This document shows, piece after piece, positions 3,240-50,597 of a stretch of DNA of 64,000 nt. The stretch covers positions 1 to 64,000 of the forward strand of contig MU129000.1 in assembly GCA_014904985.1 (NCBI GenBank), in the 5' to 3' direction. Positions within the stretch are counted from its first letter, which is position 1; the number at the start of each line of letters is the position of its first letter. The notes under the pieces were generated by a model, which saw only the letters and a list, made by a program, of their open reading frames with translations, searched no databases and had not been told where the DNA came from. The DNA comes from Hydnum rufescens UP504 (Eukaryota; Basidiomycota; Agaricomycetes; Cantharellales; Hydnaceae). Made by a program: the position numbers and the translations under genes.

Positions 3240-3560
3240 CTTGTGAAAAATGGAGTTCGCGTCCGATCGTTTTTCCCTTGGTATAGTTCGATGCGCATTT
3301 TTAACAGCTTTTAGGGCGTGGTACTCGCGAATGAATCCGATAAGAATTGGCTTCAAAAATCAAGAAATACTCCTTCAGAGTATGAATCATGGCAAGATAT
3401 CGTTACAGGGACCGCATTTTTGATCCGTTCGTTTCGTGTTTGGTACCATTCGATAGGTACGATTCGTATCTTTCTGGGCGCGGTCGTTTCGAGTCGATCC
3501 GATCAAAAGTGATGGAGAAATTCGAAAAATACTCCTTTAGAGTAGTGCAGCCCCTATCTG
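3240..3560 (+). repeat. Two units of a ~160-bp dispersed/tandem repeat family
   Basis: Two imperfect copies about 165 bp apart share landmarks: a T-rich step ending in AGCTTT or TCTTTC, then GGGCGYGGT, a GATCCGAT-like word, and AGAAATTCGA. The same family occurs in both arms of the foldback at 48.2-48.7 kb and 51.4-51.85 kb. It does not code for protein here. Islands of CpG survive in it although its surroundings are CpG-poor. Confidence 0.6.
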
Positions 3561-4770
3561 GATCATGTGATGGATCTGTGAGTCCAGAATCAGAACTAGG
3601 CCTGGTCTGCATTGTTACATAATCACAATCCATCACCCTTAAGGCAGTAGGATGGCTTGGAAGGACAGTCAAGCCATACAGTCTTGAGGAAGAATGGCAA
3701 GTTGAATTGCCTTGTCCAAAGAAAATGGACTTGATGTAGGGCATAAACTGCCCCTTTTTAATGAGGACTGTTGAAGTCCAAAGGATAGTCAATAAATTGA
3801 CTGGTGGACATGGTAAAGGAATGAGGCAATATTATGAGTTGGAAAGGGGTGGGAATCCAATTGACTTCTTGAATAAACGAATGATGATGGAATGTAATGA
3901 ATGCAGTGACATGTAATTGTTTTGTTCATAAGGAAAATGGGCCTCAGATGAGGATTCTATGGTGTAGGGATTTATCCCTCCAACAATGTGAGGGCCCAAT
4001 GTATGTAGGGCAGGCAGTGCTGATTGCAAGTGATGATGCCTGGGGCATCCATGTGTCAGCTGAGGGGGTGGTCATCCAGCCCAGTAATCAGGTTTGTGTT
4101 GGGGTTGGAGCTGGATTCTATGGGGCCAGGGAGGTGCTCTGGGTCAGGACCAACACTCCTTTAAGGGTGAGATGGGATGAGAGATCTGTGTTCATATGCC
4201 TTGGGGAGGGCAGGGAAGGTAGGTTTGTATCATGTGCCAAAGATCTCTATATGCTGATTTCTTCCTCATGGGTTGTCCTTTTTGTCATTGTGCTGCCATT
4301 TTTGCTGTGCATGTATATGGCTCATCATTTTATTCTTCTTGCTTTTGTTGCCCCCCCCCCCCTTCTCTCTTTTTTTTTTTTAAGTCATTGTTGATCCCCC
4401 AATGCACTGGGCCTTTGCATACTATACCCTCACTATTACTCTTTGGTGTTTTCAGGTACAGTTTTGGCAGTGGTGGGCAGGCAGCCAGGAGCCAGGAGGT
4501 GCAGCAGGAGGGGGGGTGGAAAATGTGTAGGTTTGGATAGGGCATGGCAACACATTGTTATTTTGGTGCACCCAACATGGGGGATCACTTCAGTCTGCAT
4601 GTCAGTTCTTGAGGTGGTGTTTAATGCAGTTCATGAGGAGGCAGGAAACAGGCATAGTCAATATCATGGTTTTCTGTAGTATTTACATCCATATTTTATT
4701 AGGAATGACCCCCACATCTCCCATGTCTTAGGTTGGGGGGGTGGGAGCCACAGCCCCCTTGACCATGGCT
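3561..4770. other. No convincing gene; possible 3' part of LINE ORF1
   Basis: The minus strand just below ORF1 (4240-4700) encodes a proline/cysteine-containing low-complexity stretch that could be the ORF1 C-terminus. The plus-strand open frame at 3897-4394 has no recognisable domain and ends in a poly-C/poly-T tract at 4350-4381, so I treat it as chance. Confidence 0.4.
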
Positions 4771-6779: not shown

Positions 6780-8190
6780 TGGGGCCATATGGGCTTATCA
6801 GCAGCTACAAGTATTTACTTATTACTGTATTGTTTATTCTCATCAATAATTATGAATATTATATACATATTATCCCCCCACCCACATGGGGGGGGGGGGT
6901 TGCACCCAGCAGGGTCCTGCCCCACCTGGTGGCCACACACTTCATTTTACCCACATATCTCATCTGGGGGCCGCACACCCCATTCTTGCAGGTGTTTGGT
7001 TGGTGGGGTCACAGGTTGCTTTGTTCAGGGTCGTGTGTTTTGGGGATGGCATGGGTAGTGGGCACCTACATTAAATAAGGTGATACCTTAGTAAAAATAA
7101 AATAAAAGAAAACCAATGCAAAAGGAGCAGCCTATGCTGCTCCTTTTGCATGGTCGGACATGTAAATATATACTTACTTTAAAGATTACCACACACCCAC
7201 AGTAGTGGGTGTGTGGCTCTTTATTTCCTCTGTGGCTTTGTGTGCATGTCCTCATTCCTTCGCCCATTTTCATTCTCATGGTGGTATGTGTTCATATGTG
7301 GGGTTTCATTGGTGACTGGGGGGTGAGCATATTTGGGCTCATGGTTGTGTGGTTCGCACATTGAGGTGGGGTGTCTTGGCCTAGAATAAAAGATAAGTTA
7401 GTTTAAAAAATTTGCACAAAAAGAGCAGTGACTGCTGCTCTTTTTGTGCATTTGTAGCTACCAAAAAATAAATACTTTATGTGGCCACACACCTGCCACA
7501 GCAGGTGTGTGGCTCCCTCATTTCCTGTGGCTTTGGGCATTCATTGTCCTTCATTCATTGGCATGTTCATGTGTAATGGGGTGCGGTGTTTCATGGGGTC
7601 TTGGCGGGCCCACAGGTTGGGCTTGTGGCTGTGTGACTTCATGCATTGGGGTGGGATATGTTGACCTAGAATAGTATATGTTAGTTGAAATCAAAGGTCA
7701 CACAAAAAGAGCAGCAGCTGCTGCTCTTTTTGCATGTCTGAAACCAGTAAAAAACAATATATACCTTATATGGCCACACACCCGCCTCAGTGGGTGTGTG
7801 GCTCTCTGTTTTCCTGCTCTTCATCATGGCTTCCTGTGGGCATTGTTGTTGTTCATTCATTCACTTGTTTGTTCACTTGTTCACGTGTTTCCATTCATGT
7901 GGTCATGTGCGGGGTGTCGTTTGTGGGTGGAACAGCTTGACCTAGAATAGTAAATAAAAGTGTTAGTACAAAATTTAAAACCTGTGCAAAAAGAGCAGCT
8001 TTCGCTGCTCTTTTTGCACCATTGTATCTACTAGCATAAAAATAAAAATAAAACTCACCTTTTGACCACACAATGCACAGAGGTGGGTGTGTGGTCATTG
8101 GTGTCTGCCTTTCTAGGCAGTTGCCTCTGTGTATGCAGTCAAGGGAGAGTGCAACTCAATGCCAGCAATTGCCGGAATTCAAAAGGTGCC
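6780..8190 (-). repeat. Array A, left arm: four exon/intron hairpin units
   Basis: Read on the minus strand, each unit is an exon ending in a hairpin of the CCACACACCC / GGGTGTGTGG type, then an intron with a GTAAGT/GTGAGT/GTATAT/GTATTT donor, a central hairpin (for example GCAAAAGGAGCAGC / GCTGCTCCTTTTGC), an ACTAAC-like branch site and a CTAG or GTAG acceptor. Inferred introns are 7942-8058, 7666-7764, 7381-7475 and 7066-7177. The leader near 8160-8190 carries the GGCAATTGC motif shared by all arrays. The far end (6780-6890) is AT-rich after a G-run. No coding potential is conserved between units. Confidence 0.75.
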
Positions 8191-8769
8191 CAAGTGCTGG
8201 CACAGCAAGCAGGATATGGATAAATAATAAGGAAACAAATGGGCGATAGATGTGAGATAATAAATATTTTTTGCCAAAAATGATAGAGAACAATAATAAT
8301 AAGGCAGACTTCCATGAGGCACTATATGCCAACATTGCAAAGCAGATTGGATCATTTCTGTGGGCCAGAATTGAGCCAAATTTGAATATGTTGGTGGTAC
8401 ATATGTATATACTATGGACAATCCATTATTATAGACAACCTGGCCATTTTTCAATTTCTGACACCTTCAATTGCCTAAATAGGGAATTGAGGACATGAAA
8501 AATTGAAAATTGACAGAATGTCTGATATAATTAATCACTCAGATAGAGGGCATATGTGCCATAAATATACTCACATTTGGGCCCATTTTGACCTATAGAA
8601 GTGGCCCAATTCAGCTTGCAATGTAGGCATATCCTGCCCTATTGAGCTCTGACCTACTATGGCTGTCTTTATCATCCTTTCCAAAAATATTCATTATATT
8701 GTAACTTATTACTTGTCTATATACTGGCTACTAATCTATATGGTGCATGTGGCACTGGCACTTGAGCAC
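8191..8769. other. Centre of array A between two divergent leaders
   Basis: AT-rich spacer with no open frame of note. It separates two inverted leaders that both contain a (C)AATTGCCGG-like word followed by GTTGAGTTGCA or TTGAGTTGCA. If the arrays are transcribed, this is where a bidirectional promoter would sit. That is inference; no core promoter was identified. Confidence 0.4.
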
Positions 8770-10330
8770 TTTTGGAGATCTGGGAATTGCCGGTGTTGAG
8801 TTGCATCTCCCTACAAACAACCACCTAGAAAGGCAAGTAGACGACCACACCCACTGCTGCAGGTGTGGTCAAAAGGTGAGTTTTTTTAATGCTAGTAGAT
8901 ACAACAGCACAAAAAGAGCAGTGAAAGCTGCTCTTTTTGTGCTGCTTTGAATTTTTTTACTGACACTTTATTTTTCTAGGTCATGGCCAGGTCTCAGGCA
9001 CCAAACGAGACCCCACCAAATGATGAGACCCGGCTGCCAAGGTCCCAAATGGCAACACACAAACTGAAAATGCCCCAAACGAAGCCATGCCAAGCGAAAT
9101 GGCACCAAATCAAATGGCACCAAACAAAATGATGCCAAGTGAAATGCACCACAACACAGAGGTGGCTATGCACTGACCAAGTGGCCACACAGGCCACACA
9201 AACCACACACCCGCTATGGCAGGTGTGTGGTTCTATATAAGGTAAGTGTACCCCCAATGGCACAAAAAGAGCAGCAATGCTGCTCTTTTTGTGCTGGTTT
9301 TAATTTTTTAACTAATGATCTATTATTATAGGCTAGCCATACCCATGGTGCCAGGCCCCCTGAATGATAACCCACCCACAAAGCGAGATCCACGAACAAC
9401 AAGATGCCAAATGATATGAACCCCACACCTGTTATCATGGGTGTGTGGTTTTATATGAGGTAAGTAATGCACCCCACAAAAAGAGCTGCTCTGGCAGCTC
9501 TTTTTGCATTCATTTTAACTTCTAACTAACACCTTATTTATTATTCTAGGTTATCATCTCAACCACCCCAAACCAGCCACCCCTCCCCCAGAAATGATCA
9601 CGCACCCACCGAATGAGAGTTGTGAATGCAGTCTGCCCAAGAACATCCACCCTGACCCCCAAGAGTGGGAATGCACACATGCAAGACAGCAGGGACCCCA
9701 GACGAGCCACACACCCACTTCGAGCGGGTGTGTGGTAATCTTAAGGTAAGTACAATCCCTGCAAAAGGAGCAGTGTATGCTGCTCCTTTTGTGTGGCTTT
9801 CTTTCCCACCTCCCTTTTCACTAATGTATTATTTATTATCCTAGGTTTTCATCTGAACCCACAACCCCGACCAATCCCCATTGAAGACCTGCGACCCTGC
9901 AGAACAACCATGCAAGGATGGTGACCCCAAACGAAACCTGCGAATGGGAAAACATGATATGGGGCCACAAGCCCTGGACAAACCCAACACCCGCTTTGGC
10001 AGGTGTAATAATTTGAGGTAAGTAGTCACCATCTATAAGTACGATCGTGCAAAAGGAGCAGCATGTGCTGCTCCTTTTGCATGGTTTTCTTTTTTACTAA
10101 TTATTTTTGATTGTAGGCATTTTCAACCCACAGCCCTCATCAACCCTTTCCACCCTGACCCCAAACCTGCATGAACCGCCAACTGAAAAACAGTGACCCT
10201 GCCACATGCGACCCCGGGTGAGGGGGATATGTAGAGTATAATAATAATAATAATAACAAATTAATTATAAACAAAACACCACCCCAGAGGGGTATGCATA
10301 TAATAATGAATAAATAATGATAAATTGTTG
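8770..10330 (+). repeat. Array A, right arm: five exon/intron hairpin units
   Basis: Mirror image of the left arm. Inferred introns are 8876-8979, 9242-9331, 9460-9549, 9746-9844 and 10018-10116. Every exon end pairs with itself (for example ACACACCCGC with GCAGGTGTGT) and every intron has a central hairpin. The intron at 9460 carries GAGCTGC / GCAGCTC where its neighbours carry GAGCAGC / GCTGCTC, so both strands of the stem changed together. Introns at 9746 and 10018 have GGAGC / GCTCC in place of AGAGC / GCTCT. The arm ends in a TAA-rich tail at 10239-10320. Confidence 0.75.
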
Positions 10331-12989: not shown

Positions 12990-13270
12990 GCAGGTGGCTT
13001 GCCTTTGAAACTGGGCAATTGTCAGTGTTGAGTCCTGGGTTCAATTTACCGGCAATTGCCGGAAAATTGTTTCTGTTGCATGACACCACCACCTCCATCT
13101 ACCAAGGCCCAGGACAAGCCACCACACCCCAGTATAGACTGGGGTGTGGTGTTAAGGTATGTAATTATAGTCTTAGCTACTCTAGTGTAAAAGGGGCAGC
13201 CTCTGGCTGCCCTTTTTGCACTACTATTGATTTTTTTTACTGACCTGTCGACCCCCCATTATAGGGTCCC
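12990..13270 (+). repeat. Locus C: solitary exon/intron hairpin unit
   Basis: It has the same order as the arrays: a leader with GGCAATTGCCGG (13053-13064), an exon-end hairpin (CCACACCCC / GGGGTGTGG, 13117-13150), then an inferred intron 13157-13264 with GTATGT donor, a central hairpin (AAAAGGGGCAGCC / GGCTGCCCTTTTT), a TACTGAC branch site and a TATAG acceptor. Its stems carry further paired changes (GGGGCAGC with GCTGCCC). Confidence 0.7.
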
Positions 13271-31797: not shown

Positions 31798-34700
31798 CTA
31801 TGGCCTCGTGGAGTCCTCATTTTCACTGCCACATTCTTCCAGGGTCCTGTGGTACTCCCTGAGGCGAGAAAAGGTGTTCCGTAGCCCCGGCTCGGGCTCG
31901 AATCTGTCGTGCTCAGGCCCGTACCCTTTCCACCTCACTAGGTACTCCCTCCTTCTCCTCGACCGATTGTAGCGGTGTCCTACAATTTCTCTACTTCGTA
32001 TTCTTCTTCCTTCGCCAGTTCCCTTAGCTTGGGGAGCCTGGCTCATTCGTCATCTTGCTCGTCATGGTGGTATTTTACCAGATGCTGTATATTTATGATC
32101 GGGTGCATCTTATATTCAGGGGGTATATTCACATGGTAGACTACGGGATTTATCTTTTCCGAGATCTGAAATGGCCCAATGTGTCGTTGGACTAGCTTCC
32201 TCCCCGTGCCTTGCATGTCGACCAGCTCGAGGGAGTGGGGGTTCACTAGAACCTCATCCCCTTCCTCAAATTCTTCGTCGCGCCTTCACAAATTATAGGC
32301 TTTCGCTTGCCTGGCTTGGGCTCTTGCTAGGGCATCCCGGGCTAGTGAGCAATGGGCTTCCATCTCACCTACGAATGAAGAGGCGGCTGCGTTGTCCAGC
32401 TCCGTCCGTTTGATGCCCCTTCCTATTGGGTCCATAGCAGTCGCCTTAGTCTTGGGGGAGTACCCGTGTAAAAGGAAGAAGGGTGAATAACCGGTGGAGG
32501 AATGAGGCATTGAGTTGCGGGCCATCGCGAGTGTTCCTAGCCACTGGGCCCAGGAACTGTGATTCCCAGCTGTGTAAGCACGTAGCACCACTTCGAGCGT
32601 GTTGTTGGCCTTTTCCGTTTGTCCATCCGTCTGCGGGTGATGGGACGTCGAGAGGAGTAGATCCAGCTCAAGGTGTTTGGCAACTGATGCCCAAAAGGAT
32701 CAGGACCACCTGGTGTCCTGGTCCACAATCATCTGCCTTGGGAGACTGTATTTCAGGATGACATGCTGGATGAACATCCTGGCAAAGCCCTCCTGCTTTA
32801 AGCTTGAGGAGGTGGGGACGTATTGGATGAATTTGGTGAGCTTGTCCACTATCACTAGCACTGTGTCATGCCCTCTGACTTTGGGAGGCCCGTAATGAGG
32901 TCTAGGGTCACTACTTCAAATGGGAGTAGTGGGATGGTGTGGGGACATAGCTTTCCCATTGGTCCTCGTTTGTCTGATTTAATCTTCTGGCAGACATCAC
33001 ATGTCTTAGTGTAGTCGACTATGTCTGCCCACATCTTGGGCCAATAGAATCGCGCGGCGAGCTTGTGAAATAGCCTTGAGGATCCTGCGTGGGTGGTTTC
33101 CCAGGGTGACTCATGTGATTCCTTGAGTATCCTGCATATTTCTGACTTCGGCACGCATAGTCGGGCTACCCAGTCTGCATCTCGGAAGATCAGAAGTCCT
33201 TCTCTGGACTTATAAAATCTCTGAGCTGCCAAGAGCTCCGATTCGTCTTCTGCTGCTTCGCTCCATGGTTGCCAGAAGCTGGGGTCCGCTTGGTATCCTT
33301 GAACGAAGGCTTCTATTCTTTGGGGGCTGATCTCGATGTCCAGCGTTCGTGGCACGTGTTTTCGGCCTGGGGGGTTTGTTGTTCTGGCTCTTTGCTGCGC
33401 AGCCAACTCTATCTCGTCTGTTGTGCTGGCGGTAGCCTTCCCTTCCTCTTGGAGACCTTGCTTCTTGCTCTGCGCTCGGGTGGAAAGGAATGCCACTCGC
33501 TCGGTGGGCTTCCTCTCTACTACGTCTTCCCATGTGTACATTGGTTGCATTGGGAGCTGAGTTGGCAGGGAGGGGGAGATATCTTCCACAGGCGATTGAT
33601 GCAGCAGAACCTGTCGTAGCCTTGAGAGGGGGTCGACGTTGGAGTGAACAATGCCCGCTCTGTGTACTATATCCAGGCCTGGATACACTGCAAATACTGC
33701 CCCCCATGCTGCGAGACGTCTGTTGGCATTTTCGTACGTCCTGGCCCATTGTAGGGCTGCATGATCCGTAATCACAATGTTTTTCTCGCCTTCGATGAAG
33801 GGTTGGAAACGCACTAGCGCTTCCTTAACCCCTAGGGCTTCTCTCTCCATTGCCGAATAGTTTCGTTCGGCAGACTTGAGGGACCTACTCCAGTAGGCGA
33901 TTACTCGTTCTACATGCACTATCGTGTCTTCCATATTCTCAGCCCAGGGGCTGGGGTCGGGCATGTCGTTTGTATTCTTTGAGGCTTGACGAGCTATTTT
34001 CGGGACAGGCTCGCCTTTTGCATGAGCAGCCAGGATCTTATCATATATTTTCGTACCCTTCAGATTTCTCATAGCTATTGGCTGGATTTGTTGTAGACTG
34101 GCCCCTATGGCTACGTCTGATGCATCGGAATATATACAGTACGGCCTAGCTGGAATCGAGTGACCGAGCACAGGGGCTGAGACCAGCCCTTCTTTGACGT
34201 CTTTGAAGGCTTGTTCTTGCTCCGCCCCCCAAGTCCAGCTTGTGCCTTTTCGTAGTAGTTCGAATAATGGCGCTGCTCACTCTGAGTAGTGCAGTATAAA
34301 GTGCGAGAAGTAAACGGCCATCCCCAGGAACGTTTGCAGTGTTGCTCTATTATGGGGGCGGGCTAGGTCCGTAACAGCCTTGATCTTTTCCTTGTGGGTT
34401 GACAACCCAAGTCGGGAGACCTTTTGCCCCAGTAGTAGGATAGAGGTGTACATGAAGTGGCACTTCTTGGGAGCCAAGGTTAGTTTGGCTTCAGCACATG
34501 CCTGTAGGACTTGGTTGAGGTGCTCCAGGTGCTCCTCATATGATTTTGAATATACTACGATGTCATCTATGTACACAGTGAGAAAATCCATAGAAATGGG
34601 GCGAGGATGGATTGCATCATCCTCTGAAAGATGGAGGGGCCATTCCTAAGGCCAAAGGGCATTTGTTTGAATTGCCAGAGCCCTCGGTGAGAACGGAAGG

Positions 34701-36530
34701 CTGTTTTCTCTTTATCCTCCTCATCTATCATCATCTGGTGGAATCCCGCCAGCACGTCGAGGGTGGACAAGACCTGCGATCCTGACAGGGCTTGCAAGAT
34801 CTCCGTTTGTCGAGGGATCGGGAATTCATCAGGTATAGTCATGGCATTGAGTTTCCTGTAGTCTACACAGAATCTCAGTTTCCCATTTCGATATGCTATA
34901 ACTACAGGGGCGGCCCAGGGACTTTTCGAAGGTTCCACCACCTCCTGATGGATCCACTTGTCCATCTGCTCATCAATCACTTGTCTTTTCACTGGAGAAG
35001 CCCCGTACATAGGCATGGACATGGGGTGGGCCTCCTCCTTCATGCGGATCTTGGCGATCGTTTCCAACGTCCCCAGGCAATCGTCGAACCCGAACGCCTG
35101 GATATGCTTTTTGATCAGAGCCAGAGTCTTTGCTTTTATGTCTGGAGGAGCATCTGGAGCGATATCTATGAGTTCTTCGAGTTTCTTTGAGTCGTACGTA
35201 GTCGGGTCTGCGGGCTCTGATGTTTTAGGGCCCCAAAGCTCATCAGGACCGTCGGGTCCTGGGGGGATCTCCAGCGCTCGCGACTTCGCTGATGCTTGAT
35301 CTGATAGATCCTTGTCCCCCAACGATCCTTGGGCGATCTTCTGCACTACCTGGGCATAGGCTTTCAAGCGCTGCGTTCATCCGTCATCCCTGGCCCTATC
35401 GAAGTACTGCTCTGGGTCATGTAGGACACCCAGTACATCACCCTTGCGAATCCATTCTGCGGTGGGGGACGTATTGGCTACCTGCACTATGAGCTCCTCT
35501 GACTTAAGCAGTGCTGACGGAGCTGCTAGGAAGCACCCATTGCTCGTGGGAAGCATAACCCTCTCCATGAACCATTCCTCATGCCCCGCTACTAGACCTT
35601 CCACCGGAACCCTGGCGGCCCATCCAGGACGGATCCTCACATCCTTTGCCGCTCGCAACAGGCATGGCGTGCGGCAATATTCTTGGCACCTGTCGGGGTT
35701 CCTGGAAGCGGCTAGGTACGCGGCGCGATTCCAGATCCCTTTGGGATGGCGTGGCCGGACTTGGACATTTCTTGCCACGATGGGGGTCGAATGAGCATGA
35801 ACGTCAAATCGCTCCTCCGGCTGACTGATCGAGAGGTGCATCTCTTGTGCCATTCTCAGCATGGAGACCTCGTAGTTAACCTGGAAGTCCTCCCTAGCAA
35901 CATGGGAATGTTCATTCCTGGTATCACGTAGGCTTCCTCAAGGAATTCTAGCATTCAACTGTCCGTCGTAGGCATGAAGACTTGAAGGTTCACGTAGCCT
36001 AGGATTTTTGCTTGGTTGGTGAGCTCGAAAAGGCTAAGCTTCATCCCCTTTTGTAATTTCGGGCAACGTTCCAAGGCTTTATAGCATTCCTCTGATATCA
36101 GCGTGATGTCAGCGCCCGAATCTAGTTGTAGCTGTACTTCTGGACTCGGGAGCGACCCCAGGTAGCCACCATATATGCTAAGTGCCATAATGCCCAGAGC
36201 TGATTTCCTGGGGGGTGTGGTTCTAGCCTTGAGGCAACGAATAACCTTCACTGGAAGGTCATTCGGAGCCTTTGGTGATTCCGGCGGCTCGTTCTCAACT
36301 GGCTTCGACGCCGCGGCCACTGCTACGAATCGCTGACTCATTTCTCCCAGATCGCAGGGGCGCTGTCTATCAGGAGGTTTTCTTGGGGAATCCAGGAAGG
36401 ATTTCACGGGAGGGGGAAGCTGTATATTACTCGTTGCTACATTTACATTATGCAACAAGTGTTCTTGAGTCTCTATATACGTGGGCTTCCGATAGGTTAC
36501 AGGGGAACTAGACGGTGGAGCTGTGTTCAT
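31798..36530 (-). pseudogene. pol: Gypsy pol: protease, RT, RNase H, integrase, chromodomain
   Basis: Order along the minus strand: aspartic protease with LQLDSGADITLISEECY (~36120); RT with FCVDYRKLNAMTIPDEFPIP (~34870), LSTLDVLAGFHQMMID, KQMPFGLRNGPSIFQRMM and the catalytic Y-I-D-D (~34570); RNase H with YCIYSDASDVAIGASLQQ (~34130); integrase with a H-x-H zinc region and CDVCQKIK (~33000), core VIVDKLTKF and VDQDTRW; GPF-like RHIGPFQISEKINPVVYHVN; and a C-terminal chromodomain (REYLVRWKGYGPEHDRFEPE, ~31930). The protease frame overlaps the end of gag in another frame, as expected for frameshift expression. TGA stops at 35955, 35377, 34277, 32700, 32286 and 32043 stand where CGA (Arg) fits. 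One-base losses occur near 35890, 34580 and 32860. The chromodomain marks the chromovirus group, which targets modified histones. Confidence 0.95.
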
Positions 36531-36541
36531 CCATCCCGTAA

Positions 36542-37837
36542 TTAAAAATCCTGGCTGGAATCTATGGCAGCTGAATATGCTGCTTTGTAATTAGGTGTCT
36601 CATAATGCCAGTGTTCCTTTTTGAGCATTCTCCTCTCGAGACGATTGGAATATGCTCCATAGTGTTTACATTCCCGGACCCAGTGCTTCTCACTCCCACA
36701 GGTGAAACACTTCTGGCTGGGCTTGTTATGGCTGACCACAGAGTCATCTCGAGGGTACGGGTACGTCTTTTCGACATTATCCGCCGTCTTGCTCGAGAGG
36801 GGTACGCGATGCTGAGGGTGATAGGATCGGCCCGTCGGGCACTTTCCCACGTTAAACGCTGTCGAGGAAGCCCTATTTCCTTCTGCTTCCTCACTGGAGT
36901 AGTAGAAGGCTCCCTCGGAATCATCCTCAAAGGGGGAGTGCAGGGAATCCTCCTCCTCCCTTTCTTCGTTGTTGCCCTGCGTGGCTAAATTGGCTCTCTT
37001 GGAGCTCCTTGCTCCTAGACGATGTTGGTAGTACTGCGAAGATCTCCACTGGGTGATCAACGCGGCTTCAAATTGTTTGGCTGACATCAGGACCGATTCT
37101 ATCGGGGGTCGGTCACTCCAGCACAGGATGACATCCCACTCGGTTGGTGTGTTGTTCATGACCAAAGCCGTTTCCTCGGGGCTATTAGGGGTGAATCGCA
37201 AGAAAATGCACGAGAGGAGGATTCGCTGTTGTATGTACTCTGCAGGTAATTCGTCGGGGTACTCGGCGCTGCGGAAAACCTCTTTGTTGTATTGGAGGCG
37301 CTGCGCCGTGTACCAGACCTCTCCTAGATAGCGATGTAAGACCCACTCACACAGGTTGTCCCACGACTGGAGAATTGAGTGTTTGACAGGCACGGAGTGT
37401 GCCCGCCAAGCAGTTGCTACTGCTCCTTTGAAACAGCATGTCGCTATCATGGGCAACTGGCCCTCCAATGTAGGGCCTAGACTGGCGAGATCGTTACATT
37501 CGTACAGCCAGTCGATTGCTGTCTCGTGCGCTCCGTCCCATTCAGGTACAGTAGACCATTTAAGCTTATTGTCCCACACAATGCCAGAGGGCGGGGCATT
37601 GGAGAGCAGTCCTTCGGGCCTGGGAGGACCTGGTGGGCCTGGCGGGCCAGGAGGGCCAGGAGGACCCATGGGAATGGGGGGGGCCTGAGGGACCTCCACT
37701 AGGAGGGGATCCTGGCCCTTGGCTTCCTCGTCCTGGGCCTCCTCCACCACCGGGGCCTCCATTTCCACCACTTGGACCTCCACCTCCACCTCCACTAGGG
37801 CCTTCGCTGTTGCCCCCTTCCGGCTGGCCACCCCCAC
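36542..37837 (-). CDS. gag: Gypsy Gag polyprotein with zinc knuckle
   Basis: An intact 431-residue frame. After a glycine/proline-rich N-terminus with PPGPPGPPGPP runs, the retrotransposon capsid-like region contains WSTVPEWDGAHETAIDWLYE and CNDLASLGPTLEGQLPMIA (~37530-37440). A CCHC zinc knuckle, C-F-T-C-G-S-E-K-H-W-V-R-E-C, lies near 36680. It would bind element RNA and form virus-like particles in the cytoplasm. It ends with TAA at 36542, overlapping the protease frame. The true N-terminus may lie further upstream, since coding continues to the assembly gap. Confidence 0.9.
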   Translation of the reverse strand: MGVASRKGATAKALVEVEVEVQVVEMEAPVVEEAQDEEAKGQDPLLVEVPQAPPIPMGPPGPPGPPGPPGPPRPEGLLSNAPPSGIVWDNKLKWSTVPEWDGAHETAIDWLYECNDLASLGPTLEGQLPMIATCCFKGAVATAWRAHSVPVKHSILQSWDNLCEWVLHRYLGEVWYTAQRLQYNKEVFRSAEYPDELPAEYIQQRILLSCIFLRFTPNSPEETALVMNNTPTEWDVILCWSDRPPIESVLMSAKQFEAALITQWRSSQYYQHRLGARSSKRANLATQGNNEEREEEDSLHSPFEDDSEGAFYYSSEEAEGNRASSTAFNVGKCPTGRSYHPQHRVPLSSKTADNVEKTYPYPRDDSVVSHNKPSQKCFTCGSEKHWVRECKHYGAYSNRLERRMLKKEHWHYETPNYKAAYSAAIDSSQDF

Positions 37838-37978
37838 TACCCTTCAAACTGTGGGGTTGAGAGGGCGGTGGATCCTTGACTCATAGGTCTCCCATGAGAG
37901 ATTCGGGGCTCACACACCTTGAAGGACCCGGGGGAGGTGTATTCCCATTCGACGCTTGGGAAATGATGGGGGCTTGCC

Positions 37979-39530
37979 CTAGTTTGGATAGTGGGGCTTG
38001 TGTTGGTTACTCGTGAAGAGCGAGCTGAGCTGAGGCATTGGGGCCACTTTGATTAGGCCCGAATAATAGTCATGGCTCTGGTGCTCCGGGGGCAGGTAGG
38101 GCAGGCGTGTCAGTGACAAGGTTCCACGCCTGGCCGGGAGGTAGCCTCGCATTCTCCACCACATTCAATCGCGCTATGAGGTAGCTGGCATGTGGCGAAC
38201 GACCCTGCGCTTGTTGGGTCGGTCCTAAGGCTGGGGCGATCCGGCTTGACGATTTTCGGACTGTCTGGCCTAATACCGTTCCCATTTCCCATGCTCCTGC
38301 AGGCTCCCTACTCGATCCCAGAGGTTGCGGCTTTGACGGGGTCCAGAGGGTATTCTTTAACCCTTCCCCTAGAGTGGAGATTCGCTGGGAAAGGACCTCG
38401 AAGCGATTCTTGGGATTTGGGGTAACGGGGACGCTCTCTTGGGGTCGTGGATCCTCAAGAGGGACATCTTGCCAAACGGCTGGCAATGCTTCCAAATCGA
38501 TAGACGAAGCCGGAGCACGGAGGAGCTTCCTTGCAAAGCCCTGTCTGGATGACTGTCCGGGCCAGGCGGGCAAGTCTATTATCGAGCCAGCACCTGCCCT
38601 TGGACTTCACGAGAAGTCACGATTCACGTCTCCGCTGGGCTCCTGGAATTCGTCCGGGGGGAGAAATAGCCCCAAGCCGTGGGGATCTGTGTTTATGCGG
38701 GGGAGGGGTTGGACTCCGAGGGCATCTTCCAGCTTAACGTCGTAGTACGTGTACTTCAGGGCTTGACTGCCTGAGAAGGGATACCTCGTGGCCTGTTTGA
38801 TAGGGCGAGTGCCATTGAGATCGGCTTCAATCACTTCCCATCCCACAGTGAGAGCCCAACGGGCCACGTTCTTGGTAGGGAGGCGTGGATCGAGCCACGC
38901 TTTATGCAGACGGTCCTTCAATTCAGGCGTAGGGGGAAGGGAGTCCTCCGTNNNNNNNNNNNNNNNNNNNNNNNNNNNNNNNNNNNNNNNNNNNNNNNNN
39001 NNNNNNNNNNNNNNNNNNNNNNNNNNNNNNNNNNNNNNNNNNNNNNNNNNNNNNNNNNNNNNNNNNNNNNNNNNNNNNNNNNNNNNNNNNNNNNNNNNNN
39101 NNNNNNNNNNNNNNNNNNNNNNNNNNNNNNNNNNNNNNNNNNNNNNNNNNNNNNNNNNNNNNNNNNNNNNNNNNNNNNNNNNNNNNNNNNNNNNNNNNNN
39201 NNNNNNNNNNNNNNNNNNNNNNNNNNNNNNNNNNNNNNNNNNNNNNNNNNNNNNNNNNNNNNNNNNNNNNNNNNNNNNNNNNNNNNNNNNNNNNNNNNNN
39301 NNNNNNNNNNNNNNNNNNNNNNNNNNNNNNNNNNNNNNNNNNNNNNNNNNNNNNNNNNNNNNNNNNNNNNNNNNNNNNNNNNNNNNNNNNNNNNNNNNNN
39401 NNNNNNNNNNNNNNNNNNNNNNNNNNNNNNNNNNNNNNNNNNNNNNNNNNNNNNNNNNNNNNNNNNNNNNNNNNNNNNNNNNNNNNNNNNNNNNNNNNNN
39501 NNNNNNNNNNNNNNNNNNNNNNNNNNNNNN
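37979..39530 (-). pseudogene. Upstream ORF of the gypsy element
   Basis: Coding-like sequence between the 5' LTR and gag, partly lost in the assembly gap. The frame from 38950 (TPELKDRLHKAWLDPRLPTK, WALTVGWEVIEADLNGTRPI) continues past a TGA at 38607, where CGA restores arginine, into 38573-38070 (IDLEALPAVWQDVPLEDPRP). A frame change follows at about 38080. It may be an N-terminal extension of Gag or a separate protein. No domain was recognised. Confidence 0.55.
38952..39530. other. Assembly gap (579 N)
   Basis: 579 unknown bases inside the gypsy element. Open frames drawn across it have no meaning in this interval. Confidence 1.
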
Positions 39531-39725
39531 GGAATGGCGATGCATTCATGCGTTGCAGGGTGATACAGAACGTCGTCATGTTGAGATGATGGGATGTGAT
39601 GCGGGATCGCATCATTAGCATTGGGTTTCGAAGGTCGACCCGTTTACTCATATTGTGTGGCGTGGATTGGAGCGAGCAGGACAGGGAGTCTGGCGATGGC
39701 AGGGGGTTGGTTGGTTCAACTGCCT

Positions 39726-40329: not shown

Positions 40330-41100
40330 TGTGTTGGGCACCCTCTTGCTGTGTTCCCAAGGTCATTGCCACAATCCCACAATGGCTGGGACAGTTGATG
40401 TGACTCCTTGTGCTGCTCTCGCTACACTGGCCGACCACTCATCCCAATTAGGGCCAAACGCAACATTCACTGGTCCAATCAATGTTAACAGACCCATCAC
40501 CTTGCCTGAAAACTTGCAACTGATAATGTGACAATTGCAATGGAGGATGAGCTACAGTTGAAGATTACAGAGATATGGGCTAGTGTGCAGCGCCTTGAGA
40601 GTAATATTTCAAGAAAGACCCAGGAACTTCATCTTTCGGATCAGAAGTCCCACAAGGAGTTGGAGCAGTTAAAGACCAACAAGTGGATAAACCTCCAGCT
40701 GAATGTCCAGGTTGTGAGGGACCAGCTCCTGATGAAGCTTCGTAAATTTGAGCTTGCTGGGCTGGAGCATGCTGACACAAGTCGCCAGCTGGATCACAAG
40801 ACTAAGGAGCATGTGGAGAAGGCAATGAAGGGTCGAGTCTCTGGGATTCAAGCAACACTGAAGCGATATGAGGATATCCGACAGCAGATGATGAAACTTA
40901 GAGGAAAAGGGAATGTTGCAAGGGATGCATATATCCCTCCAGAAATTTCATCATCTGTTTATAAGTTGGATGTGGATGAAGATATTTGGCAAGTGCCTCA
41001 TCATGAGGACATGGCAAATTTTCCAGATGGGAGGGTCCCTGCTTGGCTTGCAGACAACGAAGTCTGTGAGAGCATCCAACATGCCCAGGAGCTGGCAAAC
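40330..41100 (+). pseudogene. KDZ transposase, C-terminal region (upstream piece)
   Basis: The reliable frame starts at 40528 (EDELQLKITEIWASVQRLES) and encodes the coiled-coil C-terminus of Kyakuja-Dileera-Zisupton transposases: LLMKLRKFELAGLEHADTSR (~40725-40785), a basic linker, SSSVYKLDVDEDIWQVPHHE (~40950-41010) and VPAWLADNEVCESIQ. In related proteins this follows the catalytic RNase H-like core, which is not seen here. The frame is cut at 41100 by the hAT-like element and resumes at 45544 (N-CQEELGCCKAELSNL). The sequence between 40330 and 40527 is open in another frame and unrecognised. Confidence 0.8.
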
Positions 41101-41750
41101 TAGGCTATTGCACAGGGTCCCCACAGGGGAATTTAGGACCTCCCGCCCCGCGGGGTTGAAAACCCACCCCTGTGACTCACGGGTGTAAAAGCCGCGGGAT
41201 ACAAGACGGGGTTGAAAAACCCGGGGGGACCCTGCGGGAACCCCGCGGGACAATGATCACAGTATTGATACCAGAGAATGACTGTAATTTGCTTGGGTGT
41301 GGTCCCTCAAGTTCCTTGTGCAATGTAGCAAGAGGGAGTGGCTGGAGGGAGAGGAGAGGAGTTGTGAGAGGGAATTACTTAGGAAGGATCAGGTCCTTGA
41401 ATGAGATTGGCTGCCGACTCTCCACAGAGCCAGTGATTCAAAACTAATGACACTAAGTACTTAGGTGGGAAGGGGCCAAAGGGCTCATACATTGGGACAG
41501 TCAGGGTGTTCATCTTCCACTAATCTCACCATCCACATCTTCATCCTCAACCATAATCCAGAAATTCCAGGGCACCATGAATGTCTTGATCCTTTTGAAA
41601 GTCGGGTGATCATCAGATTAATACACAGTAAAGACCTTGTGATGGGTTGAACATGGGCTTGAAGACTTCAGGGCAGATGTCACTATTTACAGAGTTGTGG
41701 GATAATGGATACATGGAGTTCGAACTGATTGGATAATGCAGAAACACGGA
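41101..41750. other. Left subterminal part of the hAT-like element
   Basis: Contains the TIR, GC-rich palindromic words such as CCCGCGGGG (41145-41250) and unremarkable sequence with no coding support. Confidence 0.5.
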
Positions 41751-43100
41751 GGGGCTGATTGCCACACACCTGCTTCGGCGGGTGTGTGGCTCCATATTTG
41801 AGGTCGCCTCATTGTATTGGTTGCGAATAGTTGAGAGTTAGGGTCTTGGGTGGCTGCGTGCATGCCTGTATTTTGCCCGGGCCTTGTCCGTGGATTCTTT
41901 GGACGGGGGTTTTGTGGAGTGAGAAAATCTAGAATAGTGCATATGTTAGTTTTAAAAAAATAACAAAAGCAACACCAAAAGAGCAGCCGGGGCTGCTCTT
42001 TTGGTGTCGTTGTACACCCCGTAATAAAAAACACATACCTAATATTGCCACACACCCGCCAAAGCGGGTGTGTGGCACTGTACTTGTTTCGTCGTCGTAT
42101 GGGTTGTGGGTACTCGAGAGTCGGGGTCTTGGGTGGCTGTGCACTCCTGTGTTTTGTGGTGCGTTGTCTGTGCATTCTCCGGGTTGGGTTTCGCAGAGGG
42201 AGAAAGAACCTAGAGTAATTAAATACGTTAGTAAAAAAAACACAAGCAACACCAAAAGAGCAGCTGGTGCTGCTCTTTTGGCATTGTAATACACCCATAA
42301 TTTTAAAAAACGGACCTAATACACCCACCGAAGTGGGTGTGGCACCATACTTGATTCGTCATTGTAGGGGTTGGGGATACACGAGGGTTGAGGTCCTGGG
42401 TGGCTGCGCGCACACCTGTATTTCGCCCGGGCCTTGTCCGTGGATTCTTTGGATGGGGGTTTGCGGAGTGAGAAAACCTAGAATAGCGCGTATGTTAGTT
42501 TAAAAAAAAAAACAAAAGCAATGCCAAAAGAGCAGCTGGGGCTGCTCTTTTGGCATCGTCGTACACCCCATAATAAAAAAACACATACCTAATATTGCCA
42601 CACACCCGCCAAAGTGGGTGTGTGGTGCCATACTCGTTTCATCGTCATATGGGTTGTGGGCACTTGAGAGTCGGGGTCTTGGGTGGCTGCGCACTCCTGT
42701 ATTTCGTGGTGCATTGTCTGTGCATTCTCCGGATCGGGTTTCGCGGAGGGAGAAAGAACCTAGAATAATTAAATATGTTAGTAAAAAAAAATACCATAAG
42801 CAATGCCAAAAGAGCAGCTGGTGCTGCTCTTTTGGCATCGTAATACACCCGTAATTTAAAAAAACTGACCTAATACACCCACCGAAGTGGTGTGGTGCAT
42901 ACTTGATTCGTCGTTGTAGTGAGGTCTTTGATTTCGTTCCGCTAGCCTTGTCCGTGGTTTCTTGTATGTGTGGTATCGGAGGTTTTGCGGAAGGTACTGA
43001 GGATGAAATGCGTTGAAGAAGGTCCTAGGTCGTGGGTTGAGTTGAGGCGAGCACGACAAACTACCCCCCATAAAAGTCTCAACGCCAATCAGCGCAAAGA
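41751..43100 (-). repeat. Array B, left arm: four complete exon/intron hairpin units
   Basis: Minus-strand units. Inferred introns: 42760-42869, 42478-42588, 42210-42315 and 41929-42038. Two unit types alternate: one with an exon end G(C)CACACACCCGC / GCGGGTGTGTGGC and GTATGT donor, the other ending TGGGTGTATTAG with a GTCAGT or GTCCGT donor. Central intron hairpins are GCCAAAAGAGCAGC / GCTGCTCTTTTGGC types. Branch ACTAAC and acceptors TCTAG are conserved. A last hairpin without intron is at 41765-41795. Confidence 0.75.
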
Positions 43101-43490
43101 GCATCTCGGCTCTCTGTGGTTTTGCAGGGAGGCGAGAAGTCATGACACCCTATGAATAAAATAAAACAACAACATACTTGTTATATGTAAAAAGCCAACA
43201 ACACAACCACAGCCGAAAGCGAGGTAGCGCCTGGACAGAGCCGCTTGTTGTGGCTCTGTTCTGTGTCGCCAGTGGATATACCCGCTGTATAAACATACAA
43301 GAGTAGTCTACGCTGGATCTGTGCCGACGTCAGCGCGTCTGCGAGTCGCGCGTTGTGTTTCGTGGTCGTGGGTCCTCCGATGCTCTTGGCGTGTGTGCGT
43401 TCTATTGCCTGTAGTAGGGTATTCTATGTGTATCTATTATCTATTTATATGAGCCTTGTACTGCCCCTACTTGGGCGCTTTTTTGAGGCC
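43101..43490. other. Centre of array B
   Basis: Spacer between divergent arms. A degenerate hairpin-like pair (CAAAGAGCATC / TCGGCTCTCTG) occurs at 43095-43120 and a stem AGAGCCGC / TGTGGCTCT at 43235-43260. No gene. Confidence 0.4.
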
Positions 43491-45320
43491 AGCAATCGCC
43501 GGTGTTGAATCTCGTCCGATTCTACTCTACTAAGGCCACCTGAAGCAAGCACGAGATGGTGCCACACACCCGCCGCAGCGGGTGTGTGGCACTATTAGGT
43601 AAGTTTTTTATCTGGGGTGTACGGCAACGCCAAAAGAGCAGCAACAGCTGCTCTTCTGGCATTGTTTGTGTTGTTTTTTTTTACTAACAAATTCATTATT
43701 CTAGATCCTCTCTCCCTCTGCGAAACCCCAGCCAAATTATGTGCAGACAAGGCCCAGAGCGAAATATGGGGGTGCACACAGCCACCCAAGACCTCAACCT
43801 TTGTGTATCCTCAACCCCTACAATGACAAATCAAGTACGGCGCCACACCCACTTCAGTGGGTGTATTAGGTCAGTTTTTTTAAATTACGGGGTGTATTAC
43901 GACACCAAAAGAGCAGCACCAGCTGCTCTTTTGGCATTGCTTATGGTATTTTTTTTTTACTAACATATTTAATTATTCTAGGTTCTTTCTCCCTCCGCGA
44001 AACCCGATCCGGAGAATGCACAGACAATGCACCATGAAATACAGGAGTGCGCAGCCACCCAAGACCCCGACTCTCGAGTGCCCACAACCCATACGACGAC
44101 GAAACGAGTACGGCACCACACACCCGCTTTGGCGGGTGTGTGGCAATATTAGGTATGTGTTTTTTATTATGGGGTGTACGACGACACCAAAAGAGCAGCC
44201 CCGGCTGCTCTTTTGGCGTTGCTTTTGTTTTTTTTTTTAAACTAACATACACACTATTCTAGGTTTTCTCACTCCACAAAACCCCCATCCAAAGAATCCA
44301 CGGACAAGGCCCAGGCGAAATACGGGCATGCACACAGCCACCCAGGACCTCAACCCTTGCGTATCCCCAACCCCTACAATGATGAATCAAGTACGGCACC
44401 ACACACCCACTTCGGTGGGTGTATTAGGTCCATTTTTTAAAATTATGGGGTGTATTACAATGCCAAAAGAGCAGCACCAGCTGCTCTTTTGGCATTGCTT
44501 GTGTTATTTTTTTTTACTAATGTATTTAATTACTCTAGGTTCTTTCTCCCTCCGCGAAACCCAACCCGGAGAATGCACAGACAACGCACCACGAAACACA
44601 GGAGTGCACAGCCACCCAAGACCCCGACTCTCGAGTACCCACAACCCATACGACAGCGAAACAAGTACAGTGCCACACACCCGCTTCGGCAGGTGTGTGG
44701 CAATATTAGGTATGTGTTTTTTATTACGGGGTGTACAATGACACCAAAAGAGCAGCCCCAGCTGCTCTTTTGGCATTGCTTTTGTTATTTTTTTAAAACT
44801 AACATACGCACTATTCTAGATTTTCTCACTCCGCAAAACCCCCGTCCAAAGAATCCACGGGCAAGGCCTGGGCAAAATACAGGCATGCGTGCAGCCACCC
44901 AAGACCCTAACTCTCGACTATTCGCAACCAATACAATGAGGCGGCCTCAAATACGGAGCCACACACCCACCGAAGCGGGTGTGTGGCAATATTAGGTGTG
45001 TGTTTGTTTTTATTACAGTGTGTACCATGGTGCCAAAAGAGCAGCACTAGCTGCTCTTTTGGCATTGCTTGTGTTCTTTTTTTTTTACTAACCTATTTAT
45101 TATTATAGGTCCTCTCTCCCTCTGCACAACCCCACCTGAAGAATGCCACCCAAGACCCCAACCCTGAGTATCAACGACGAAATACATATGGTGCCACACC
45201 CACTTCGGCGGGTGTGGCAACATTCAGTTACATTTTATATTATGGTGCTCTTTTGTTGAATTTTTTTCCTTACTAATGTAAATGTGTCTATAATAATAAT
45301 AAATTAATAAATAAATAATT
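43491..45320 (+). repeat. Array B, right arm: six exon/intron hairpin units plus a degenerate one
   Basis: The leader (43480-43520) has AATCGCCGGTGTTGAAT. Inferred introns: 43599-43704, 43870-43981, 44153-44262, 44428-44538, 44710-44819 and 44996-45108. Unit types alternate as in the left arm. All introns have a TTTTACTAAC-like tract and a TCTAG or TATAG acceptor. A decayed seventh unit (45190-45290) precedes a TAA-rich tail (45285-45317) similar to the tail of array A. Confidence 0.78.
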
Positions 45321-45543
45321 GGTTACCTAACAGTGGACAGGAGATATGAATTTTGATGTTGAGATGATACATCCACTTACAGCCTCTGGTGGTTTCAAAA
45401 CCCGCCTGCATATTCCTGGGGATGGCGGGTTCTTGGCGGGTTTTAGGCACGGGTCCACATTGGTACTCCCGCCCCATGGGGATTTCCCCCGCGGGGTCAA
45501 AACCCGTGGGTTTTGAAACCCCGTGCAATAGCCTATGGCAAAC

Positions 45544-46030
45544 TGCCAAGAGGAGCTTGGGTGCTGCAAAGCTGAACTCTCCAATCTATGTTGCTGGTTC
45601 ACAAAGCAGTATGCTGCTACCCAGCATACCTTTGATTTTTGCAATGGTAGGGGTTCCTTCCAACTTGACTGAATGTAAACTAACAACTCTGGGGATGTGG
45701 ACAGATGAAGATGTCAAATTCTTTGTCTTAATGGAGTTACATCACTTGCATGACCTGGTCAACAACTGGAAACATCACACAGCAGGACTTCTTGGTAGGG
45801 ATGGGTGGGTGGACTGGGGAAACATTCCAGACCAACTGCCTCCATTACAGAGGGCATGGGTCTGCCGACAAGGTAGAGCCCAGGCTGAGGAAGTTTTATC
45901 ACCTGGGGAAGAAGAGGCTGAAGAAGCAAGTTCTGATGATGATGAAAATGGGGAGTTGGAAGAAGGACCTGAGGCAGAGGACCTCACATTCCTAACCTCC
46001 CTTGATCTGGTTCTGGGACATGAGGATTAA
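45544..46030 (+). pseudogene. KDZ transposase, C-terminal end (downstream piece)
   Basis: Resumes the frame broken at 41100: CQEELGCCKAELSNLCCWFT, then a 58-bp intron (45647-45704, GTAGGG..CTAAC..ACAG). The next exon is joined in frame as FCND-EDVKFFVLMELHHLHDLV and runs through WGNIPDQLPPLQRAW to an acidic tail (EEEAEEASSDDDENGELEEG). TAA is at 46028. Related KDZ proteins end in the same order of blocks. Apart from the hAT-like insertion this end of the gene is undamaged. Confidence 0.82.
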
Positions 46031-49905: not shown

Positions 49906-50390
49906 CTCTTAGTCCAATGCAGAGGAGCAGCTAGCATAGTCTCATAACCAGACTGTCTGTGATGGTCTGGTCAAATAGGACTTCCTGTTGAATGGTGAAA
50001 CATACTTCTGATCCCACCAATCATAAAAAGTTTTGATTGGAGATAGCCAAATGGTTTGGTTGCTCTTTGAATATGACAAATTTAACCAGACCTCATACTC
50101 AGATTGGTTTAGGGGGAATCTCAGCCAGATGACTTCAAAGAGGGTAGAAATAAATTTAATATCTTGTAGTATTTATTCTTACATCCGCTATAGAAGAAGG
50201 GTTGGGAGCTCCGATGACTGTCAAATCAAAATCTGGTTCAGCCAGTGTGTAGATGGGAGACTGTATTTCTGTTGTTATTCGTAGGGCTGGTTCACTTCAA
50301 TGGTTGATCACACTCTGTAAGACGTGTATGGTGTTCAGTGGAGAATAGGAAGGGATATGGACTAGCTGTAGTCAATGATATATCGTGTAG

Positions 50391-50597
50391 GATGCTTGTA
50401 GAAAGGCTTATACATCTGTGATGCTTGTAGAAAGGCTTATACGTCATGTGGGATGCTTATAGAAAGGCTTATACGTCTGGGATGCTTGTAGAAAGGCTTA
50501 TACGTCTGGGATGCTTGTAGAAAGGCTTATACGTCGTGTGGGATGCTTATAGAAAGGCTTATACGTCTGGGATGCTTGTGGAAAGGCTTATACATCG
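50391..50597 (+). repeat. 29-32-bp tandem repeat, about seven units
   Basis: Each unit is GATGCTTGTAGAAAGGCTTA plus TACGTCTGG or TACGTCGTGTGG. The left arm has only two units at the mirrored place (49458-49510), so the array grew after the arms separated. Confidence 0.9.

Follow-up and report, generated by a model that had tools for sequence, protein, structure and literature searches.

What kind of element repeats an intron over and over, with one hairpin at the end of the preceding exon and another within the intron itself, in two arms that point away from each other? The question is raised by the first 64,000 nucleotides of contig MU129000.1 (forward strand; GenBank assembly GCA_014904985.1) of the basidiomycete Hydnum rufescens UP504, a stretch that we call the window. 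A preliminary description, made from the sequence letters, had pointed out such units between positions 41,751 and 45,320, referred to here as array B. As the best explanation of the whole we lean slightly towards a module, carried by hAT-type DNA transposons, that gives a spliced non-coding RNA and evades host surveillance.

The units were located with a covariance model, R1. Of 341 hairpins, 286 could be oriented and 55 were left unassigned, and 251 full units were obtained. From these, 46 representatives of less than 70% identity were chosen, and three were dropped because of odd geometry or a position at a locus edge, which left the 43 diverse units of alignment A1, from which R1 was built. 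R1 recovered all ten of the divergent units described before, four on the minus strand and six on the plus strand, each scoring above 100 bits, whereas the best wrong-strand match anywhere in the window scored 42.5 bits. The starts of the units are about 270-290 bp apart, and both sequence reading and a repeat search gave two outward arms. In the left arm, on the minus strand, the units are 41923..42081 (exon hairpin 42046-42077, intron 42038-41929, intron hairpin 41970-42009; 139.7 bits), 42204..42350 (exon hairpin 42321-42340, intron 42315-42210; 108.7 bits), 42472..42631 (exon hairpin 42598-42625, intron 42588-42478; 129.1 bits) and 42754..42903 (101.5 bits), the last having a decayed exon hairpin and the donor GTCAGT. 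The right arm, on the plus strand, consists of 43556..43710 (intron 43599-43704, intron hairpin 43629-43660; 131.2 bits), 43835..43987 (exon hairpin 43845-43864, intron 43870-43981; 102.2 bits), 44110..44268 (exon hairpin 44116-44143, intron 44153-44262; 130.2 bits), 44393..44544 (exon hairpin 44403-44422, intron 44428-44538; 103.6 bits), 44667..44825 (exon hairpin 44671-44702, intron 44710-44819; 130.2 bits) and 44953..45114 (exon hairpin 44958-44987, intron 44996-45108; 131.7 bits). It ends in a degenerate eleventh unit (45186..45302, plus strand, 39.5 bits) that gives way to A/T-rich sequence (AATAATAATAAATTAATAAATAAATAA), which by eye is polyadenylation-like.

Both hairpins were found as previously noted, and the predicted introns were 106-113 bp in the nine units handled by the intron script; the unit at 42754-42903 was missed by the script because its exon hairpin is decayed. 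Two splice junctions that had been proposed, 43598/43705 and 43869/43982, agree to the base with the introns predicted here. The donor had been called GTATGT-like, which describes four of the ten units; the other six have GTCAGT (two), GTAAGT, GTCCGT, GTCCAT and GTGTGT. Allowing up to two mismatches, the intron-hairpin arm occurred 41 times in the window, compared with 2.07 expected.

A conserved leader precedes the right arm (43440..43554, plus strand; TTTATATGAGCC...TTGGGCGCTTTTTTGAG..AGCAATCGCCGGTGTTGA, with the motif starting at 43490) and is a candidate promoter or first exon. A search of own-genome loci for the leader motif gave 81 matches, compared with two in shuffled sequence. In 38 of the 81 an exon hairpin followed on the same strand at a distance of 55-107 nt, and the others include palindrome echoes on the opposite strand, leaders whose first unit was missed by the strict rule, and a few that are likely due to chance.

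Array B was found to lie within an element of about 4.4 kb (41101..45535), as defined by alignment to the loci L009-L019 and by common ends. These ends are inverted repeats, TAGGCTATTGCA.. and ..TGCAATAGCCTA; the left one, TAGGCTATTGCACAGGGT, occupies 41101..41118 on the plus strand, and the right one (45518..45535) is the left-end sequence on the minus strand with one base different. They are flanked by an 8-bp target-site duplication, TGGCAAAC, at 41093..41100 and 45536..45543. With up to one mismatch, the end pattern was present in the own genome 81 times in forward and 75 times in reverse orientation, and the control gave none. Therefore, from the inverted ends, the target duplication and the recurrence of the end pattern, array B is the interior of a non-autonomous DNA transposon of hAT type. 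Such a carrier is of an ordinary, known kind. Among 11 two-ended elements the 8-bp duplication was exact in five (the window copy, L010, L015, L017 and L156), was 9 bp long in L016 and 7 bp, within a simple repeat, in L018, and was absent from four (L009, L029, L032 and L157). The feature proved larger than first described, comprising the 4.4-kb transposon and, elsewhere in the window, a second array and a lone unit. The window copy, with its four left units, looks rearranged when set beside L009, where a palindromic centre separates five units on the left from six on the right. Its centre (42920-43419) was unaligned to other copies among the matches listed; L009 has there a palindrome and an extra left unit.

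The hAT dimerisation domain PF05699 was detected at 90 places in the genome, one of which (C68:213380-213532; 37.2 bits, cut-off 21.4) lies between array-B-type ends in the 6.04-kb element L029. The transposase of L029 is on the minus strand, and the next exon, in which a further part of the domain scored 14.1 bits and so fell under the same cut-off, reaches a stop codon. Eight array units are located downstream of the transposase on the same strand, between positions 2339 and 391 of the element. The apparent link to a transposase rests on this one element. Three elements, L029, L156 and L157, had been selected by their ends (L029 also by its hAT match) and not by arrays, and all three contain arrays. 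The earlier suggestion of a repeat that spreads was correct as to the spreading and incomplete as to the unit of spread, which is a DNA transposon that carries whole arrays and in one case a hAT transposase gene. Elements of different build carry the module, and in one case seen, L157, it adjoins a host-gene piece: an open frame at 3454-3882 of that element (C54) holds a bromodomain piece (PF00439, 19.0 bits, just below the cut-off of 21.7), possibly a captured host exon.

Within the genome (63.2 Mb, 539 contigs), a query of about two units gave 414 matches, many of them as divergent pairs. The exact core of the intron hairpin, AAAARAGCAGCN(2-6)GCTGCTYTTTT, was present at 3515 places and the reversed pattern at none, from which the arrays, at about 275 bp per unit, would make up roughly 1 Mb or 1.5% of the assembly, decayed hairpins being missed by this count. 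Units running outward were seen in 23 of the 26 loci searched; L012 and L025 have a single arm, and L019 has only units facing each other. Facing runs were present too in seven loci (L014, L017, L019, L021, L027, L160 and L161) and are taken for neighbouring elements. By eye, the arms end in A/T-rich sequence with AATAAT/AATAAA stretches. In two protein searches H. rufescens UP504 was the only named species seen, the second query giving one match, from a 1487-bp JGI contig; a non-coding element is visible to such a search only through chance gene models. The intron-hairpin core was also seen in at least 120 stretches of IMG/VR viral contigs, at a single hairpin position in each of the 80 listed; these were set aside as relatives and are taken for unrelated hairpins of terminator type.

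The stems of both hairpins are maintained by paired changes. In alignment A1, 90.3% of the pairs were standard, both partners had changed in 21 of 33 pairs, and a further 50 pair types were present; when the partner column was shifted by one to three positions, pairing fell to 33-58%. The observed level of covariation was reached in none of 500 shuffles, a test that kinship among rows can inflate, least so for counts of pairs and types. The intron hairpin forms an almost perfect stem of about 16-21 bp, and three introns that were folded had z-scores of -3.9 to -4.5. Three exon hairpins folded at -27.4, -22.9 and -15.8 kcal/mol (z -6.2, -6.7 and -3.3). The exon hairpin is about 30 nt long and is followed by the donor at a median distance of 7 nt (quartiles 5 and 9).

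The loops of the exon hairpins carry a strand bias. UNCG loops stabilise RNA, and on the presumed transcript strand UNCG loops and the forms derived from them by CpG loss outnumbered their complements by 95 to 30 among 172 units. In smaller sets the counts were 44 versus 17 (n = 93), 35 versus 9 (n = 69) and, among the most diverse units (n = 37), 18 versus 3, the remaining loops numbering 47, 32, 25 and 16 in the sets of 172, 93, 69 and 37.

The splice signals were scored in a different set, of 266 units, which also served for the tests of loops and wobble pairs. These units were picked by the order of the two hairpins alone, and circular selection is therefore avoided. A donor was scored as [AG]GT[AGC]NG[TC] within 26 nt after the core of the exon hairpin, and a branch site plus acceptor within 80 nt after the intron hairpin. 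A donor was found in 212 of the 266 units, compared with 3 in the mirrored place on the other strand and 10.9 in shuffles; branch plus acceptor were found in 224, compared with 4 and 15.1; and 179 units had all of these signals together. Donor, branch site and acceptor are thus ordered on one strand, beyond the mirrored and shuffled controls, in the manner of a spliceosomal intron. In A1, whose rows were selected with splice signals present, column identity was 90 and 93% at the donor GT, 100% at the branch A, and 98 and 95% at the acceptor AG, compared with 60% over 35 other unpaired intron columns and 69% over 15 columns between branch and acceptor; GT was in place in 37 and AG in 40 of the 43 rows. 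The median intron over 251 units was 107 nt, or 70 nt without the hairpin, and many units have AGGT at both intron borders.

Distance between units does not abolish these signals. Among the 37 units that were less than 65% identical, 25 had a donor, 25 had branch plus acceptor and 16 had both; the mirrored controls gave 0 and 0 and the shuffled controls 0.9 (donor) and 2.1 (branch plus acceptor). Free variation of the signals between units, which the preliminary description had named as telling against it, was hence looked for and not found. The exon bodies of distant units were 0.585 identical, compared with 0.579 after shuffling (300 pairs, 46 units), whereas whole units were 0.663 identical compared with 0.544, a figure helped by the hairpin-based choice of units. 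Transposon sequence normally drifts; the retention of splice signals and hairpins with randomised exon bodies points to selection on RNA processing itself, and the proposal that splice architecture plus structure is the conserved object is borne out.

We consider it probable, on this sequence evidence, that the arrays act as spliced RNA. Transcription of the array would run outward from the centre of the element, or the array would follow a transposase gene; each unit would be a short spliceosomal intron. By looping out about 40 nt, the intron hairpin would reduce an intron of about 107 nt to an effective length of about 70 nt. Given its length of about 30 nt and its median distance of 7 nt from the donor, the very stable exon hairpin would cover the place where the exon junction complex (EJC) is deposited. 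The most likely benefit would be that the transcript of the element is spliced efficiently with its junctions left unmarked, and that host RNA surveillance, namely RNA interference (RNAi) fed by stalled splicing and nonsense-mediated decay, would then spare it. RNA structure can displace the EJC, although our literature search gave no usable paper on this point. The EJC is described as being deposited about 20-24 nt upstream of the junction (PMC8184009) and as requiring single-stranded RNA (PMC2682485), and poorly spliced transposon RNA is described as entering RNAi in Cryptococcus, also a basidiomycete (PMC5851062). While we infer transcription and splicing from the features of the arrays, a role in evading surveillance is tentative even if the arrays are spliced. 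That they represent a new class of transposon-encoded RNA, with hairpin-compacted introns, hairpin-masked junctions, host-like splicing and escape from both RNAi and nonsense-mediated decay, is a more doubtful suggestion still. If the arrays are spliced, they may let a DNA transposon hide its RNA, and they would provide thousands of natural replicates on intron structure, exon-end structure and RNA surveillance in a basidiomycete.

Several observations weigh against this explanation. There was no overall excess of G-U among the imperfect pairs, and the wobble test was mixed: the inner pairs of the exon hairpin lean to A-C (21 G-U versus 39 A-C, p 0.027 at 85%), whereas imperfect pairs of the intron hairpin lean to G-U (73 versus 44 A-C, p 0.0093 at 75%). 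Decay of dead copies could blur this test. Some donors are unusual (GTCCAT, GTCAGT). The region from -20 to -24 was covered in 250 of 251 units, a figure that is partly built in, as the search demanded a donor near a hairpin. Both of the other hAT relics that were read downstream (L162 and L163) were without an array match, and the idea that arrays stand beside every hAT gene was rejected on these two. Finally, eleven GenBank hypothetical proteins of H. rufescens UP504, including BS47DRAFT_1367199, are spliced translations of arrays, and in the nine gene models that were mapped (two were unmappable and were left out) the predicted acceptor was matched in 35 of 46 introns and the donor in 9 of 46, by hand count. 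These models often take a GT inside the exon hairpin as the donor; they look like frame-bound predictions and therefore carry little weight either way. Apart from the arrays, L162 and L163 (C111 and C151) have mutually similar open frames near their PF05699 relics, and L163 holds a piece of CRM1 (exportin) repeat.

The hairpins might instead function in DNA, as palindromes to which the transposase or some host protein binds, like the repeated subterminal motifs of other hAT elements. The carrier is of hAT type and both hairpins are inverted repeats, and hAT transposases bind to repeated subterminal sites (PMC10368747). This function would leave unexplained the oriented donor, branch and acceptor signals and the strand bias of the loops, and the arrays extend to the middle of the element. 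The old GTGGC motif was revised to AAGT for Hermes (PMC10368747), and we rejected GTGGC as a transposase site for that reason. Overall, we regard a DNA-level function as improbable.

An equally small probability is given to a source of small RNAs, in which the intron hairpin would be processed in the manner of a mirtron into small RNAs acting on the element or the host. The conserved and covarying stem of about 16-21 bp and the folding z-scores of the three introns fit such a source, but the exon hairpin would have no explanation in it. A search of the window against Rfam 15 at the gathering threshold gave no matches. In a relaxed search of 41000-45700 all scores were far under the cut-offs, with miRNA families at 20-26 bits compared with cut-offs of at least 72.

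A slightly less probable explanation is that the arrays are passive passengers: the 3' end of an ancestral gene with many introns would survive in them as a fossil, tandemly multiplied and homogenised and without present function. The array of L029 does come after the transposase stop codon, and most differences between close copies are, by eye, C/T and G/A changes, as decay would give. On the other hand, units of less than 65% identity retain their splice signals while the exon bodies are randomised, and the stems are compensated. Lasting selection in mobile lineages would therefore be needed.

It is very improbable that each unit is an introner-like mobile intron with the arrays as its reservoir. 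The units do bear their own splice signals, in many cases with AGGT at both intron borders, but the inverted-repeat borders and the target duplication belong to the whole element and not to the unit. The three isolated-looking hairpins that were read, among the matches listed, all belonged to arrays, so that the earlier idea of single units spreading into genes found no support.

Least probable of these explanations is a coding repeat, in which the spliced array would encode a repetitive protein. In-silico splicing of the right arm gave an open frame of 275 codons, compared with a mean of 109 and a maximum of 221 in 200 shuffled sequences, a comparison that ignores the sharing of an open frame among tandem copies; of the seven internal exons obtained by splicing array B, six have lengths divisible by 3, and there are the eleven public proteins mentioned above. 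However, this frame failed the codon-position, frame-openness and antisense controls. Pairs of array B exons had 929, 770 and 747 differences at the three positions, the excess falling on the third position in frame 0, a frame that just 12 of the 67 B exons keep open. The antisense strand was as open as the sense strand (at least one open frame in 96 of 138 versus 90 of 138 exons), and the lengths of 71 exons outside array B were spread across the three frames (24, 19 and 28). There is thus no consistent coding signal in the arrays by the codon-position test of the open frame, and a protein-coding array was rejected; the array-derived hypothetical proteins are probably annotation artefacts. 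The absence of a reading frame shared between units, as first described, is upheld by the coding test and is qualified by the exon lengths and the 275-codon frame. Helitron or self-cleaving-ribozyme repeats were dismissed, as nothing came out of the Rfam scan and the element is bordered in the way of one with inverted repeats, and a 5S- or snRNA-like leader, suggested by eye, had no Rfam support.

Several known systems resemble the module in part. Non-autonomous hAT transposons share with it the short inverted repeats, the 8-bp target duplication and a transposase-bearing relative with the same ends, but the array B element differs in holding a long array of covarying splice-signal units, and to our knowledge no hAT element has such internal arrays. 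Foldback elements of the FB/Galileo kind also consist of tandem subrepeats arranged about a centre in two inverted arms. In the element described here, separate short end repeats form the boundary, the subrepeats carry splice signals and paired stems, and the arms are not terminal repeats, as 657 bp on the left and about 230 bp on the right separate the ends from the outermost hairpin or degenerate unit. A further likeness is to mirtrons and fungal microRNA-like RNAs, which have a hairpin within a short intron, whereas the hairpin found here does not span the intron and a second one lies in the exon. Introners are repeats carrying their own splice signals, but they are single copies in genes, and the array units sit inside a transposon; the main text of an introner paper does not mention hAT, tandem or hairpin (PMC9860276). 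In the open-licence literature we found no paper combining hAT, tandem repeat, hairpin, intron and basidiomycete, and none combining foldback element and basidiomycete; nothing similar was seen among the open-licence papers listed on fungal hAT repeats or in one on H. rufescens transposable elements. Within the searches made, the module matches no family tested and no description found.

The second array in the window, array A (7060-10122), is likewise divergent. Its left arm, on the minus strand, has four units (7060-7222, 7375-7518, 7660-7807 and 7936-8100; R1 scores of 110-122 bits), and its right arm, on the plus strand, has five (8839-8985, 9197-9337, 9415-9555, 9701-9850 and 9977-10122; 88-122 bits). 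The intron hairpins are of the GCAAAAAGAGCAGC type, and the exon bodies are unlike those of array B. A motif, CTTGGTCAG, recurs near the borders of array A, and no duplication was seen in the flanks when these were compared by eye. A lone full unit is located at 13116..13270 on the plus strand (102.9 bits).

Elsewhere in the window, the minus strand of 32855-37843 encodes pieces of a retrotransposon polyprotein, with RNase H, integrase zinc-binding and reverse transcriptase domains and a CCHC knuckle just below the cut-off. A run of N interrupts open frames at 38923-39545, the window containing 579 N in total. A tandem repeat with a 29-bp unit, GGATGCTTGTAGAAAGGCTTATACGTCTG, is present at 50390-50596, and a similar stretch was seen once, by eye, in L157 near 1911-1940.

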